This document shows, piece after piece, positions 12,253-50,636 of a stretch of DNA of 61,123 nt. This DNA comes from Acidobacteriota bacterium (GTDB taxonomy: Bacteria > Acidobacteriota > Blastocatellia > Pyrinomonadales > Pyrinomonadaceae): NCBI GenBank assembly GCA_003697135.1, contig RFGC01000041.1:1-61123 (forward strand), given 5' to 3'. The notes below the pieces were generated by a model. The model did not search any database. It was not told where the DNA came from and saw nothing but the letters and a program-made list of their open reading frames with translations. Position 1 is the first letter of the stretch; every line of letters starts with the position of its first letter. The translations under genes were made by a program, and so were the position numbers.

Positions 12253-13083
12253 TCATCTAATAAAACTGGGAGTTGATTGTGAAGCGTCTGAGCTTGGCGA
12301 TTGTGGTTCTAGGTTGTTGATGTAATATACTTTCAAATCTCTTTCACTAGCTATTAACCACCTATTGTTAGTCTTTACAAGCTTCATCTCTTGTTGCACA
12401 GCGCCAGTAGAAATTTTTTGCGGACTTTTCATTACCCACATCTTATCAAAAACAACCATGGCAAGCTGTTCAGAATCGAGCGATATTTGCAAATTTTGCA
12501 CTTGAATTGAAATACTATCGTATTTCTGGTAAGCCCTGATTCTATCGGCTCTGACGTGATTTTTGTCCTTGTTGCTTTCGGTATAGTAAATTTCTAGAGT
12601 ATCGGTGTAAAAAGCAAGATGAGCTTCTAGGTTTTTATTTGAATTTGTTGCGGCCCAATTCGCTAGTGTTTCAGCAATCTCATTTTTTATCTTTTCCATC
12701 GTTTCTGGACTTATGGAATTATCATTTCGTTTGGTAGAAATACCAACCTGCTTTGGAACAACGGCTTGCTCGGATGGTGATTCTGACCTGCTACGTAGAA
12801 GGACAAATGCTCCAAGAACCAAAACTGTTAACCCAATCAGACCTAGAAAGAGAAATTTTCTATTGGAATTTTTGATGGCTTGAGTCGGCAAGGCGGTATG
12901 CGCTTTGTTTGTCAACTCTAAATTAAGAATGCTCAGATCAACAAGCGTAGCATCTTCAGGATTTGTTGTGTCAGAAGCCTTCTCCCGAAGAACTTTAGCA
13001 TCAACCAGTGCAGTGCCATCTGTAAGACAAAAATTCAGTGTTTCATCTGAATAAGAAGAGTAGCACTTCGGGCAAACCTTCAT
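12253..13083 (-). CDS. Zinc-ribbon / single-TM / NTF2-like protein
   Basis: 276 residues. Residues 1-27 are a Cys-rich motif (CPKC...FCLTDGT: Cys 4, 7 and 19, with Asp 22 a possible fourth ligand). After a linker there is one membrane helix (about residues 92-111, FLFLGLIGLTVLVLGAFVLL), then a C-terminal domain (about 150-255) with the pattern of SnoaL/DUF4440 NTF2-like folds (WAATNSNKNLEAHLAFYTDTLEIYY, RWLIASERDLKVYY). Topology is presumably ribbon in the cytoplasm and NTF2-like domain outside. The protein at 49761-50636 has the same N-terminal module with a different outer domain. Forms an operon with the DUF58 gene. Function unknown. Confidence 0.75.
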   Translation of the reverse strand: MKVCPKCYSSYSDETLNFCLTDGTALVDAKVLREKASDTTNPEDATLVDLSILNLELTNKAHTALPTQAIKNSNRKFLFLGLIGLTVLVLGAFVLLRSRSESPSEQAVVPKQVGISTKRNDNSISPETMEKIKNEIAETLANWAATNSNKNLEAHLAFYTDTLEIYYTESNKDKNHVRADRIRAYQKYDSISIQVQNLQISLDSEQLAMVVFDKMWVMKSPQKISTGAVQQEMKLVKTNNRWLIASERDLKVYYINNLEPQSPSSDASQSTPSFIR

Positions 13084-14966: not shown

Positions 14967-15062
14967 CGCAACCAAAAATTTAAGAGTAATTTAACAAGTT
15001 TGAATTTACAAAAGCCTAAGTGAGTTTTTTGGTCATTTACCTTAAAAATGATGCTTTTTCGA

Positions 15063-15090
15063 TTGAGATTCTAATAGTTTCGTGTAAAAT
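15063..15090 (+). promoter_or_regulatory. Probable sigma-70 promoter of the LVIVD/FG-GAP gene
   Basis: TTGAGA (15063-15068), 16-base spacer, TAAAAT (15085-15090), about 28 bases upstream of the ATG at 15119, with AAGGAG at 15105-15110 as ribosome site. Sequence match only. Confidence 0.45.
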
Positions 15091-15118
15091 AAAGGTCGGT
15101 TTAGAAGGAGCAACAAAC

Positions 15119-17203
15119 ATGAAACCGTTTTGCTTCGCTTTTGCTTTAGCAATTTTTATGTCTTTTCTTTTTCCGCAAGAATCTCTAGCACAAAAGATAA
15201 GACTGCGCGGTAAAGTCACGCCGAATTGCCCAGCTACGGGAAATGCCAACTGGAAGTTTGCCGATCTCTACGGAGAAGGCAACATAGCAGTTCAGGGAAG
15301 CTACAACTGCAGAGGTGCTTTTATTTACGACATATCAAATCCCGACGCTCCCGTGCTTGCTTCATGGTATAACCCAAATAACGACCAGCAATTTTTAGAA
15401 GCGATAATCTTCAACGGACGCGGCTACTTCGGCAGTGGAAACGGTGGCGGCGTTCACATCGTTGATTTGTCCAATCCTTACAGTCCACAACTTTTGGGAA
15501 TCGTGAATTCCTCGAATGGCGGCGGTTACGACCGCATTCATGAAATCGTAGTTTTTGAGCAAAACGGGAGAACATACTTGATCGAAAACTACAATAGTCT
15601 ATACTCCACGAAGATTTTGAAGGTGATAGACGTAACAAATCCCGCCAATCCAACGTTTGTTCGAGACATCAACCCAACTGAAGTTCAATGGGTTCACGCT
15701 GTTCACATAAGAGGCAACAAGCTCTATACATCAGGTTGGGGCAATTCTACGACTCGTGCGAGAACGGAAATTTATGATATTTCTAACATAGCAAATCAGG
15801 CTCCGACACTACTTGGATACATAGAAGACCCAAGCTCTTCGGTGACAAACGGTAACAACATGCATAGTTCATGGACAAGTGAAGATGGCAAATATCTCTA
15901 CAGTTGCCGCGAAGTAACCAACAGCAATGGTCCAAGTCCGGGAGATGTTCGTGTTTATAACGTCGAAAATCCAGCTCAACCGCTGCTAGTTAAGAGATTT
16001 ACAATGACCGATCTAAACCTGAATGCCGTAACACCACACAATCCCGTAGTGATGGGTAATCTGCTTTTCGTGTCTTGGTATCAAGCCGGGCTTCAAGTTT
16101 TTGATATAACAAATCCTGCAGACCCAAAACGCGTCGGGCAATACGATACATTTACTCCTGCTTTCATGCCTCCTGAGCCTGGTGAGTCTTCCATTCTAAA
16201 TGAACCATGGGATTTGGTTTGCGGAAGTAGCAATCTTCAAAATACTCTCCCAACCAATTATGACGGCAATTGGGCAGTCTATCCGTTCTTAGGATACGAT
16301 AAGGTTTTGTTAGGAGACTTAAAGGAAGGACTTCTAATAGTTGATGTAACAGGAATCTTTGCGCCTCCCAAAAATCTGGTTTCGGACTTCGATGGCGACA
16401 GAAGAACAGATTTTTCCGTATTTAACCCAACAACGAGAACATGGAAGATTGAGAAAAGCTCAAACGGAGCATTTGAAGCTTATCAATTTGGTTTAAGCGA
16501 CGACTTAGTCAAACCCGCGGATTACGATGGAGACGGAAAAACGGATATAGCAGTTTTCAGACCTTCGAGTGGAACTTGGTATGTTTTGGGAAGCTCAAGG
16601 GGATTTTTCGCCGCTCAATTCGGTTCAAACGGTGATATTCCCGTTCCGGGAGATTACGATGCTGACGGAAAAGCAGATTTTGCTGTATTCAGACCTTCTA
16701 GTGGTCATTGGTTCGTCATGCAAAGCACTCTGGGATTTAGAGCTGTCCAATGGGGAACCTCCGGAGATAAACCGATAGTTGGAGACTTCGAGGGCGACGG
16801 CAAAGCAGATTTTGCTGTTTGGAGACCTTCAAACGGCACTTGGTATGTAATGCAAAGCTCTTCAAGCCTTCCGATTTTCATACAATTCGGCACGCAAGGC
16901 GATCGTCCTTCGTCAGGCGATTTCGATAACGATGGAAAAACTGACATAGCCGTTTTTAGACCAAGTAGTGGACACTGGTATATTCTAAACAGCGGTAACA
17001 ACTCGCTATCTGTTTATCAGTTTGGCATATCTTCGGACTTGCCAATTCCGGCAGATTACGACGGCGATAGTAAAACCGACATCGCTGTTTTCAGGCAAGC
17101 AGACAATGCTTGGTATTACCTAGCGAGTGCAAATAATTCTTTCAATATGAAAGTATTCGGTCAGTCGGGTGAATTCCCGCTTCCGGCCTCGGCACAACCT
17201 TAA
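15119..17203 (+). CDS. Exported LVIVD-repeat / FG-GAP-like repeat protein
   Basis: 694 residues. Signal peptide 1-24 (ends ESLAQ). Residues about 40-420 form LVIVD-type beta-propeller repeats (VQGSYNCRGAFIYDISNPDAP, GVHIVDLSNPYSPQLLG, LQVFDITNPADPKRVG, GLLIVDV). Residues about 425-690 hold seven FG-GAP/VCBS-like repeats of about 47 residues, each D(Y/F)DGDGKTDIAVFRPSSGTW(Y/F), with Asp-rich calcium-binding loops. Start chosen at ATG 15119 (AAGGAG 8 bases upstream) rather than the frame start at 15020, which precedes the promoter and signal peptide. Such proteins are secreted or surface-bound with unknown ligands. A perfect hairpin terminator follows. Confidence 0.88.
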   Translation: MKPFCFAFALAIFMSFLFPQESLAQKIRLRGKVTPNCPATGNANWKFADLYGEGNIAVQGSYNCRGAFIYDISNPDAPVLASWYNPNNDQQFLEAIIFNGRGYFGSGNGGGVHIVDLSNPYSPQLLGIVNSSNGGGYDRIHEIVVFEQNGRTYLIENYNSLYSTKILKVIDVTNPANPTFVRDINPTEVQWVHAVHIRGNKLYTSGWGNSTTRARTEIYDISNIANQAPTLLGYIEDPSSSVTNGNNMHSSWTSEDGKYLYSCREVTNSNGPSPGDVRVYNVENPAQPLLVKRFTMTDLNLNAVTPHNPVVMGNLLFVSWYQAGLQVFDITNPADPKRVGQYDTFTPAFMPPEPGESSILNEPWDLVCGSSNLQNTLPTNYDGNWAVYPFLGYDKVLLGDLKEGLLIVDVTGIFAPPKNLVSDFDGDRRTDFSVFNPTTRTWKIEKSSNGAFEAYQFGLSDDLVKPADYDGDGKTDIAVFRPSSGTWYVLGSSRGFFAAQFGSNGDIPVPGDYDADGKADFAVFRPSSGHWFVMQSTLGFRAVQWGTSGDKPIVGDFEGDGKADFAVWRPSNGTWYVMQSSSSLPIFIQFGTQGDRPSSGDFDNDGKTDIAVFRPSSGHWYILNSGNNSLSVYQFGISSDLPIPADYDGDSKTDIAVFRQADNAWYYLASANNSFNMKVFGQSGEFPLPASAQP

Positions 17204-17240: not shown

Positions 17241-17273
17241 GAAAAAGGTTGCAATATAACTGCAACCTTTTTC
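17241..17273. terminator. Terminator hairpin, 13-bp perfect stem
   Basis: GAAAAAGGTTGCA (17241-17253) and its exact complement (17261-17273) flank a 7-base loop. The right arm ends in CTTTTTC and the left arm begins with A residues, so it can end transcription on either strand. It lies 38 bases after the upstream stop and 23 bases before the next gene. Confidence 0.85.
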
Positions 17274-17295
17274 AGCATTTGAGGAGGTTGAAAAG

Positions 17296-18777
17296 ATGGA
17301 AAAATTGACACTTCATATTCAAAACGGCTCATTAGCGGGCAAAACTTTTGAACTCCACTCGGAGCGAATGTTGATAGGTAGAGACCCCAACGCTGATTTG
17401 AGACTTCAACCAGATGAAAGAATCGTATCATCAAGACATGCAGTAATCGAAGTAAAACCTGACGGCTTCTATCTTACTGACATGAACAGCACAAATGGAA
17501 CTTACATCAACGGAGTTCCTATAAAATCACAAAGACTTGCTGACGGAGATTTGATTTCCTTCGGCAAGAATGGCATTAAAGCACTGGTCAAAATCGAGCC
17601 GGTTCCTGAATCTGCTCCTGTGTCGCCATACATAATCGAGCAACAAGAAGATTGGAGAAAGTCTGTATCAAAGATAGGACTAGCAGGTTCGTTAGAAACA
17701 GTTGAAAAGAAACCTGTCCAGCAAAAAGGTAAGTATATTGCCGTAGGTTTCACCATTTTTGCCGTAGTGTTTCTTTCCTTGATCGTTATTGCAATCCTTG
17801 TTCTTAATCTTGGAATCGTAGCGGCGTCTGTAGCGGCAGTTGTAGCTTTCACACCGGCTTGTCTTTACATTCTTCCTCTGATATGGCTTGACCGTTACGA
17901 TCCCGAACCTATATGGCTTTTGGCTTTAGCTTTCGCATGGGGAGCTTTGGTAGCAGTTATCTTTTCAATAATTGTCAATACCATTATCGCTTCTCTTTTC
18001 GGTCCTATAGTAGGAGCTGTAATTTCTGCTCCAGTGTTTGAAGAAGCTTCTAAAGGCATGGGCTTGATAATCTTGTTACTCTTCTTCCGCCGTGAATTCG
18101 ACGACATTCTAGACGGTATAGTTTACGCTGGTGTAATAGCTTTGGGTTTTGCAACTGTAGAAAATGTCCTCTACTACGGGCGTGCCTTAATCCAAGGTGG
18201 TCTTGGTGATCTACTGATAGTGTTCTTCCTTAGAGGAGTTTTATCACCTTTTGCTCATGTAACTTTTACGGCCATGACTGGAATAGGCTGTGGGATTTCG
18301 AGAGAGTCTCACAATACGCTGGTTAGAGTCTCAATGCCGATAATAGGATATTGCTTGGCTGTCTTTCTACACGCTCTTTGGAATGGTATGGCTACATTCT
18401 TAGGTCCAGGATTTCTGATAGGATATTTCATCGTAGAAGTTCCTTTCTTTCTCATTTTCGTCGGATTCTGCATCTATGTAATGAGACGGCAAAACAAAAT
18501 TCTGCGTGATGCTCTAGCTATTGACATGGCAAGAGGACTCATAACAAAGGAGCAATACGAAACTGCAACTTCGGCCATAAAAAGCACCTTATGGCTTCTG
18601 TCAGGCATCGGACAAGGGAAACTCAGGAAGCGCTGGCAGTTCCTTCGTGCTGTTGGAAAACTTGGGCTTAGCTACTGGCATATACAGAGAGCAACGGCCG
18701 CACAAGGTTACACGGGAAGTTTCCAGCAAAACCCGATTTTACGAGATGAGGTGTTAAGGCTTCGTAGCGCTATTTGA
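17296..18777 (+). CDS. FHA domain fused to a PrsW-type intramembrane metalloprotease
   Basis: 493 residues. Residues 1-95 are a forkhead-associated phosphothreonine-binding domain: LIGRDPNADLRL, VSSRHAVIEV and DMNSTNGTYINGVPI carry the conserved GR, S.RH and NSTNGT residues. From about residue 150 there are eight or so membrane helices with PrsW-family motifs: FEEASKGMG (the Glu-Glu pair expected at the metal site), GFATVENVLYY, HVTFTAMTGIG and the C-terminal HALWN. PrsW proteases cut anti-sigma factors and other membrane substrates. The fusion suggests recruitment or regulation through Ser/Thr phosphorylation. ATG 17296 has GGAGG about 10 bases upstream. It runs tail to tail with the VWFA gene (57 bases between stops). 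Confidence 0.9.
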   Translation: MEKLTLHIQNGSLAGKTFELHSERMLIGRDPNADLRLQPDERIVSSRHAVIEVKPDGFYLTDMNSTNGTYINGVPIKSQRLADGDLISFGKNGIKALVKIEPVPESAPVSPYIIEQQEDWRKSVSKIGLAGSLETVEKKPVQQKGKYIAVGFTIFAVVFLSLIVIAILVLNLGIVAASVAAVVAFTPACLYILPLIWLDRYDPEPIWLLALAFAWGALVAVIFSIIVNTIIASLFGPIVGAVISAPVFEEASKGMGLIILLLFFRREFDDILDGIVYAGVIALGFATVENVLYYGRALIQGGLGDLLIVFFLRGVLSPFAHVTFTAMTGIGCGISRESHNTLVRVSMPIIGYCLAVFLHALWNGMATFLGPGFLIGYFIVEVPFFLIFVGFCIYVMRRQNKILRDALAIDMARGLITKEQYETATSAIKSTLWLLSGIGQGKLRKRWQFLRAVGKLGLSYWHIQRATAAQGYTGSFQQNPILRDEVLRLRSAI

Positions 18778-49760: not shown

Positions 49761-50636
49761 CTATTCTCTCCTAACCCGCCAAGTGCCATATTGAGTGTTT
49801 GGCTGCAAGTAAGGATTCGAGGTAGTAGCTGTGTAGGAACCTTCCATGGAATTTTTCTTTATCCTTCCTTCCCAATAAATAGTTATATCGTTCTTACTGT
49901 CATAAGAGACAAATGAGATATTTTTTCCATCAGTGTAGCCAGAAATTATATTTCCAGACCCCAGTGCTGGTTTTGATACGTTAACCCGCCCACCTATGGT
50001 TGAACCATTCTGCGATATTCGTATTGACAAGCCTGTTGTTTGATTGAAAGTTAAATTCGTAGCACTGCCAACATACTTCCCTTCCAGTGAATTAGTCTCG
50101 TTCTTATCTTCGTCTTCAACCAGCTCTTTCTCGGTTTCGATAGTATCTACATCAGCCTTTTCTTCATTTGCTTCATTTTCAGCCTGCTCGACATCTGAAG
50201 AACGATCATCAGAAGAATTTTCATCTGACGCAGCCTCTTCTTGCTTTGAAACTTCCTCGTCCGCAAGCCGATCTTGAGTGTTATTGTCATCAGATAAACG
50301 GCTATTAGATGGCTGTTGTGCTTTTGGTTGCCGAGTGTTGGAAATTCCTGCTCCAGTTCCATCAGCGGTAGAAGCAAAATAAAAGAGCAAAGCTCCTACG
50401 CCGACTACAAACAAAAGAAAAACTGTAGCTAGAAACCCTACAAGCAGGATTATTTTTGTTTTATTACTTGTCTTACCAATAGAAGAACCAGAAGCATTCA
50501 AGCCTGAAACCACGGTCATTTGAGTTTCTTGAGATACCGCAGTTTGAGAACTTGAAAAAAGAGGTGTGCCATCATCAAGGCAGAAATTTATACCTTCATC
50601 GTAATAACTGCGACCACATTTCGGACACCGCTTCAT
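49761..50636 (-). CDS. Zinc-ribbon / single-TM protein with outer beta-rich domain
   Basis: 291 residues. Residues 1-27 repeat the Cys motif of the protein at 12253-13083 (CPKCGRSYYDEGINFCLDDGTPL; Cys 4, 7, 19). One membrane helix (about 58-88, IILLVGFLATVFLLFVVGVGALLF), a long acidic Asp/Glu/Ser linker (about 95-180, e.g. DENSSDDRSSDVEQAENE), and a beta-rich C-terminal domain (about 185-291, LEGKYVGSATNLTFNQTTGLSIRISQNG...GSYTATTSNPY) that looks like a small barrel. No family name is certain. Function unknown; presumably the ribbon is cytoplasmic and the barrel periplasmic. The 222-base gap upstream holds a decayed TTATCAGACAC element at 50761-50773. Confidence 0.7.
   Translation of the reverse strand: MKRCPKCGRSYYDEGINFCLDDGTPLFSSSQTAVSQETQMTVVSGLNASGSSIGKTSNKTKIILLVGFLATVFLLFVVGVGALLFYFASTADGTGAGISNTRQPKAQQPSNSRLSDDNNTQDRLADEEVSKQEEAASDENSSDDRSSDVEQAENEANEEKADVDTIETEKELVEDEDKNETNSLEGKYVGSATNLTFNQTTGLSIRISQNGSTIGGRVNVSKPALGSGNIISGYTDGKNISFVSYDSKNDITIYWEGRIKKNSMEGSYTATTSNPYLQPNTQYGTWRVRRE

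Follow-up and report, generated by a model that had tools for sequence, protein, structure and literature searches.

What does a phosphothreonine-binding domain do on an intramembrane protease? The question is raised by an open reading frame in the window (the whole stretch of 61,123 nucleotides analyzed here, from an acidobacterium of the Pyrinomonadaceae), in which an FHA domain precedes a PrsW membrane domain. The switching-on of intramembrane proteases from inside the cell is, to our knowledge, poorly understood, and the fusion offers a clean system for testing whether intramembrane proteolysis has its substrates selected by Ser/Thr kinases.

The sequence-only reading of this DNA held that such coupling would be a new mode of control, a claim overtaken by a publication from 2012. 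In the available part of Zhang et al. 2012 (PMC3482391), PrsW is described as fused to FHA, PilZ, cyclic-nucleotide-binding, and Zn-ribbon domains, and PrsW proteins with signaling domains are considered more likely to be signaling peptidases; the domain pairing and the proposed role are the same as those considered here. For the FHA form, Section 9 of that article gives neither organism nor alignment nor topology; it refers to an additional file, with which the acidobacterial set, the residue conservation, and the C-terminal form described below may overlap. The idea having been in print since 2012 (PMC3482391, as far as available), the value of the present set lies in defined members, defined residues, and testability: FHA–PrsW is a good test case and not a new kind of system. 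Among the papers listed by the literature searches, which covered few subscription papers, the fusion appeared in PMC3482391 alone and no experimental study of an FHA–PrsW protein was found; the accessible part of PMC7456259 treats FHA and PrsW as separate proteins.

Architecture and conservation of FHA–PrsW

The gene and its parts have the following positions.

17296..18777, + strand: FHA–PrsW gene, 493 aa, ATG start (open reading frame list, Pfam, conservation)
17302..17595, + strand: FHA domain, residues 3–100, predicted cytosolic (Pfam, AlphaFold2 model, fold match, conservation)
17626..17715, + strand: linker, residues 111–140, pLDDT < 50, taken as disordered (AlphaFold2)
17725..18483, + strand: PrsW membrane domain, helices between residue 144 and ~396, eight of them assigned as membrane-spanning (Pfam, conservation, AlphaFold2)
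18484..18774, + strand: basic helical C-terminal tail, residues 397–493, predicted cytosolic (conservation, AlphaFold2)

Both domains were recognized by Pfam, FHA (PF00498) at residues 26–90 (E = 8.1e-20; 71.5 bits against a cut-off of 20.7) and PrsW (PF13367) at residues 204–386 (E = 1.8e-51; 174.9 bits against a cut-off of 23.5). Relatives aligned across nearly the entire length of the protein, with 39–63% identity over the best segment, and the nearest named ones belong to the Pyrinomonadaceae, Acidobacteriota. These E-values and near-full-length matches exclude chance. The FHA–PrsW protein is the single PrsW match in its own genome (2.79 Mb in 47 contigs, 97% complete).

To assess conservation, residues were counted in 59 proteins, namely the window protein and 58 full-length acidobacterial loci out of 68 loci from one contig scan. 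Five loci cut by contig ends (L041, L042, L056, L060, and L061) were left out, as were a PrsW without FHA (L063), an FHA fragment (L068), and three actinobacterial PrsW proteins without FHA (L065–L067). FHA phosphothreonine sites follow a five-residue rule (G, R, S, H, N), matched here by G28, R29, S45, H48, and N67. In the FHA domain, G28, R29, S45, H48, D62, S65, G68, T69, and N72 were each found in 59/59 proteins and N67 in 58/59. With column entropy averaging 1.43 bits over the FHA stretch, these invariant columns stand out. The C-terminal tail contributes further invariant positions (W461, H462, A466, T473, and S475; 59/59). Between residues 94 and 172, G128 alone reaches 90% (55/59), and the linker is therefore poorly conserved.

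The PrsW motifs EExxK, FxxxE, H, and HxxxD/N, as defined in the accessible part of PMC12943098, correspond to E249E250xxK253, F285xxxE289, H321, and H359xxxN363, and every named residue (E249, E250, K253, F285, E289, H321, H359, and N363) is present in 59/59 proteins. The same source describes B. subtilis PrsW mutants E75A/E76A and H175A, and all four motifs are shared with Bacillus subtilis PrsW (YpdC). Unlike B. subtilis PrsW, the window protein carries an added FHA domain, scores 59 bits on the NCBI PrsW equivalog NF033739 (below its cut-off of 225 bits), and has no zf-HC2 protein on its contig. The Leptospira protein LIC_20173 (PMC12943098, in the part available) is likewise a PrsW joined to a signal-binding domain, but there the domain is a C-terminal PilZ, for a second messenger, whereas FHA–PrsW carries a phosphothreonine reader at the opposite end. 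A toxin-export role for PrsW was also considered and set aside; Pfam found no C-terminal toxin domain, and PMC3482391, as far as available, separates the signaling fusions from that class.

The architecture first read from the letters, an FHA domain joined to a full PrsW with EE and H motifs, was thus borne out by Pfam and by the 59-protein alignment, and a search among homologs for loss of the phospho-binding residues or of the catalytic EE/H residues returned none lost in 59, with N67 at 58/59. Both domains look functional from their residues and predicted structure, and FHA–PrsW is a real, conserved, and probably phosphothreonine-responsive intramembrane protease.

Predicted fold and topology, and a proposed mode of action

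An AlphaFold2 model was built from the window protein and 42 relatives. The full-length model has a mean pLDDT of 90.0 and a pTM of 0.77, with residues 111–140 below 50. The closest folds to its FHA part are OdhI (Z = 18.9) and GarA (Z = 18.8); DgcB, in a structure with its own tail bound, also scored high (Z = 17.3). By both sequence and fold, the FHA domain is nearest to the phosphothreonine-binding group of OdhI, GarA, and FhaA (Rv0020c), with which it shares these features; OdhI, GarA, and FhaA are not known to be joined to a protease.

The membrane domain is harder to place. A separate model of residues 143–493 (pLDDT 89.5) gave no Foldseek match at E ≤ 0.001, and the membrane domain gave no match to PDB sequences at E ≤ 1. 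With this PrsW-only model, VIA-align ranked 9c7u_C from the human BOS complex first (Z = 13.6, rmsd 4.7 Å over 196 residues, 13% identity), followed at rank 2 by a hit of Z = 8.5; a Z of 13.6 is close to the best value (14) that helical models typically reach when they lack a clear match, and it proves little. No Rce1, APH-1, or γ-secretase title occurred among the best 50 VIA-align rows. We take 9c7u_C to be TMEM147, a relative of APH-1. The membrane-domain arrangement may resemble that of this CPBP/APH-1-like chain, at a Z that is not beyond chance for helical models. In its accessible part, PMC3482391 describes PrsW as distantly related to CPBP and APH-1 and gives about eight transmembrane (TM) helices for most PrsW proteins, the number also assigned to FHA–PrsW.

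These eight TM helices were assigned from helix length, hydropathy, and charge, since the model itself gives helices and not membrane spans. Averaged over the 59 proteins, the K+R counts are 1.07, 2.0, and 2.44 for the presumed inner loops and 0.05, 0.17, 1.15, and 0.0 for the presumed outer ones, and the C-terminal tail carries 16.25 K+R against 7.17 D+E. Because of this distribution of K+R over loops and tail, both termini are predicted to be cytosolic. E249/E250 lie mid-helix, and E289, H359, and H321 lie 12, 9, and 3 residues, respectively, from helix ends assigned to the outer side. Charge distribution and helix ends would thus place the catalytic residues at mid-membrane and in its outer half. 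A cytosolic FHA domain controlling an active site open to the outer half would then amount to inside-out control.

The most likely reading, to which we give an even chance, is that of a phosphothreonine-responsive protease whose FHA domain brings a membrane substrate to PrsW. A Ser/Thr kinase would phosphorylate a single-pass membrane protein in its cytosolic part, or else a partner bound to it, and the cytosolic FHA domain would bind that phosphothreonine on substrate or partner. The low-confidence, probably floppy linker would let the FHA domain deliver the substrate TM segment to PrsW, which would cut at or near the outer membrane face and leave a stub to be handed to a site-2 protease. The state of the kinase inside the cell would in this way decide which membrane protein is cut.

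The fold matches also bear on a different role for the same domain. OdhI and GarA are self-binding FHA proteins. The FHA domain might accordingly bind a phosphothreonine of FHA–PrsW itself, or of a kinase, and act as a latch or docking device (autoinhibition or localization) with no part in substrate choice. The closest folds (OdhI and GarA) and the match to DgcB with its own tail are consistent with such a latch, and the 30-residue low-confidence linker could carry the phosphosite; against it, the linker is poorly conserved, G128 being its sole position at 90% or above. We consider this alternative unlikely, though the likeliest competitor to substrate delivery by the FHA domain.

Distribution and gene neighborhood

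Other FHA–PrsW fusions, which the sequence-only reading had proposed to look for, do occur in the phylum. FHA and PrsW lie in one frame in at least 36/396 sampled Acidobacteriota genomes (own genome included), 28 of them with a single match and 8 with a frame matched in two or three pieces, in a phylum-wide survey that scored the best three candidates per genome. A plasmid search found 80% of FHA–PrsW in one place in 0/72,556 records.

The PrsW domains of 46 proteins were placed in a tree, rooted at the midpoint only and with some long branches whose placement is unsure; a branch with support 99/97 splits 35 rows from 11. The 35-row side holds all 32 N-terminal FHA–PrsW proteins together with FHA-less L113 and L063 and with L114, which may be cut by a contig end. 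The 11-row side holds the actinobacterial rows, other FHA-less PrsW proteins, and one protein from another family with the domains in reverse order (L115:8197-9873, G230), in which the FHA domain is C-terminal (residues 487–550, Pfam E = 7.9e-14). Most simply, the tree suggests that FHA was joined to PrsW twice, once at each end, and lost at least once. Two joinings suggest that phosphothreonine reading and intramembrane proteolysis are linked, and the FHA-less L113 and L063 beside the fusions indicate that the protease can do without FHA.

Two observations concern the FHA-less proteins. One of them (L116:2437-4314, G254), placed by the tree with the protein whose FHA domain is C-terminal, has a C-terminal tail with repeated DTIRT-like threonine motifs. 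Four others of the same family (L117–L120, from G377, G197, G075, and G025) are each followed by a homologous protein of 258–270 aa (4/4), which resembles a metallo-β-lactamase/class II cAMP phosphodiesterase by Pfam in the one of the four that was scanned.

Upstream of the window gene lie the following features.

15020..17203, + strand: upstream neighbor, LVIVD + FG-GAP repeat protein (Pfam, synteny)
17242..17272, + strand: hairpin with T-run, terminator-like, between the LVIVD/FG-GAP gene and FHA–PrsW
17281..17287, + strand: ribosome-binding site GAGGAGG (read from sequence)

A member of the LVIVD/FG-GAP cluster lies directly upstream in 29/67 other loci. The LVIVD/FG-GAP protein was rejected as a partner; it is not directly upstream in the remaining loci, and hairpins separate the genes. 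Downstream, on the opposite strand, the window has genes for a VWA protein and a β-lactamase-family protein, and among the neighbors examined none is kept next to FHA–PrsW beyond the family level.

The window has no TTGAC before the FHA–PrsW start. A promoter-like pattern (TTGACN, 15–18 bases, TANNNT, and 3–12 bases to the start codon) was found in 32/59 loci, against 0.11% of letter-shuffled upstreams. The spacer is 16 bases in 32/32, and the −10 element ends 6–10 bases before the start codon, from which we infer a leaderless mRNA. In 25/32, a hairpin is predicted whose 3′ arm includes five or all six of the −35 bases, and in 25/32 the LVIVD/FG-GAP gene is directly upstream; a terminator-like hairpin seems to double as the promoter of a leaderless mRNA in 25/32 loci.

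This sigma-70-like pattern would suit steady expression, and together with the single PrsW match in the genome it could fit a constitutive housekeeping or quality-control membrane protease whose FHA domain merely tethers it to kinase complexes, with no switching. The invariant phosphothreonine-site residues in 59 proteins argue instead for ligand binding with a consequence, and we regard a housekeeping role as improbable.

Substrate delivery by the FHA domain would call on a kinase, and the own genome supplies candidates: 13 matches to PF00069 (12 above the cut-off, of which two belong to a single frame), alongside 16 FHA matches and M50 (site-2 protease family) matches with a best E of 5.2e-55. 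No kinase was found within 8 kb of the FHA–PrsW gene of the window. Among 13 hand-chosen lineages, one genome each, a kinase lies within 8 kb of FHA–PrsW in 4, against 1.58 expected from kinase density (P = 0.06, a value that is if anything flattering, since the kinase counts of G291, G051, and G339 are minimum values that lower the expectation). For the genus with the kinase operon, that comparison combined the G227 locus with a kinase density taken from G173 (22 per 4.1 Mb); G227 itself has 18 per 3.8 Mb. The tightest association is in G235 (L050/L105), where the frame of a kinase of 1001 aa that also has an FGE-sulfatase domain ends 3 bp upstream of the FHA–PrsW start. A member of kinase cluster 5 is present in 29/67 other loci; no kinase motifs are present in the L052 member, which a contig end truncates, and an additional kinase not belonging to the cluster occurs in L054.

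In one genus, FHA–PrsW is followed by a kinase operon (L011 and similar) in the order Zn-ribbon–kinase–PEGA, two Zn-ribbon membrane proteins, and FHA-kinase. The gap from FHA–PrsW to the kinase ranges from ~0.25 to several kb, with other genes intervening in some loci. In three other genera (G307, G389, and G243), the operon's ribbon proteins and FHA protein lie on a different contig from FHA–PrsW, and the operon was therefore rejected as a dedicated partner. In G307, FHA–PrsW lies more than 200 kb inside its contig; the contigs of G389 and G243, at 13.6 and 24.3 kb, exclude close linkage only, and in these two genomes the tables hold the operon's last two genes, with kinase identity taken from frame length. 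The own-genome FHA-kinase is on contig 14, with no ribbon genes within the 16 kb read. The proposed coupling to Ser/Thr kinase signaling therefore stands in part: intact domains and two joinings favor it; a dedicated kinase is not supported by the count of 4/13 lineages at P = 0.06 or by the operon's place on other contigs in three other genera.

Candidate substrates

The available part of PMC3498285 describes B. subtilis PrsW as the site-1 protease of RsiW, with PrsW and RasP acting in RsiW degradation. By analogy, FHA–PrsW could be a classical anti-sigma site-1 protease that frees an ECF sigma factor, with the FHA domain as trigger. The own genome has five zf-HC2 matches as well as M50 proteases, and in G011 a single-pass zf-HC2 protein (L104:6768-7577) is encoded divergently ~0.6 kb from the first possible FHA–PrsW start. 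Set against this, a search with the zf-HC2 profile placed none of the five matches on the window contig (proximity of the two genes is not needed for function), L130 from the genus of G011 does not show the G011 arrangement, and the G011 gene is the one zf-HC2 gene among ten hand-picked neighbors in deep lineages; the score of 59 bits against the 225-bit equivalog cut-off also counts against this reading. We judge an anti-sigma substrate to be quite unlikely, somewhat less so than a housekeeping role. The suggestion that relatives might keep a kinase or an anti-sigma gene nearby was checked and gave a kinase in 4/13 lineages and zf-HC2 in 1/10 neighbors. The G011 protein also has a CxxCH motif following its TM helix.

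Two window genes encode membrane proteins of another kind.

12253..13083, − strand: protein with N-terminal Zn-ribbon-like CxxC...C motif, linker with DATLVD, one TM helix, candidate phosphothreonine ligand (reading)
49761..50636, − strand: second Zn-ribbon–linker–TM protein, QMTVVS in linker (ribbon model)

The outer part of the first has a weak SnoaL/Cds6_C-like match, below Pfam cut-offs. A 27-residue ribbon model, of which the 12253–13083 protein was itself a part, gave two strong matches in the own genome, both in the window (12253–13083 and 49761–50636), and eight weaker ones (E = 6.4e-5 to 0.39). Linker residues P42 and T44 are kept in at least 90% of 17 aligned proteins (16 from kinase operons and 1 from the window), and the linker threonine motifs seen include PPTVMM, EETVIR, and DATLVD. 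In 16 relatives the model gave 100 matches, from which 20 with short frames were taken; L145, L149, and L153, which gave no translation from the base expected, were left out. A T[VIL][VIML] motif, a pattern picked after viewing examples, occurs in the linker of 13/19 ribbon proteins with a TM helix, against 2.5 by shuffling; two of the 19 are the window's own, and the L147 copy is at the helix edge.

These features would allow a specific form of substrate delivery, a phosphothreonine-gated sheddase in which a kinase marks the linker threonine of Zn-ribbon proteins, the FHA domain docks there, and PrsW cuts from outside. If true, this would be an inside-out switch of surface proteins; we consider it very improbable, slightly more so than a housekeeping role. 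The ribbon proteins persist in genomes without FHA–PrsW: six family members lacking it have a ribbon match in 6/6, within frames shorter than 400 aa in 5/6 (not G086). T[VIL][VIML] occurs in 4/11 ribbon loci from such members (11 readable out of 12 taken), lower than the 13/19 above but not significantly so (Fisher P = 0.13). In three of these members, an FHA protein as long as the FHA-kinase lies ~1 kb from the ribbon protein and may be its likelier reader. The Zn-ribbon proteins look like kinase substrates, but not like private substrates of FHA–PrsW. In several genomes, Zn-ribbon–linker–TM proteins adjoin the FHA-kinase, with which they may form a phosphothreonine relay.
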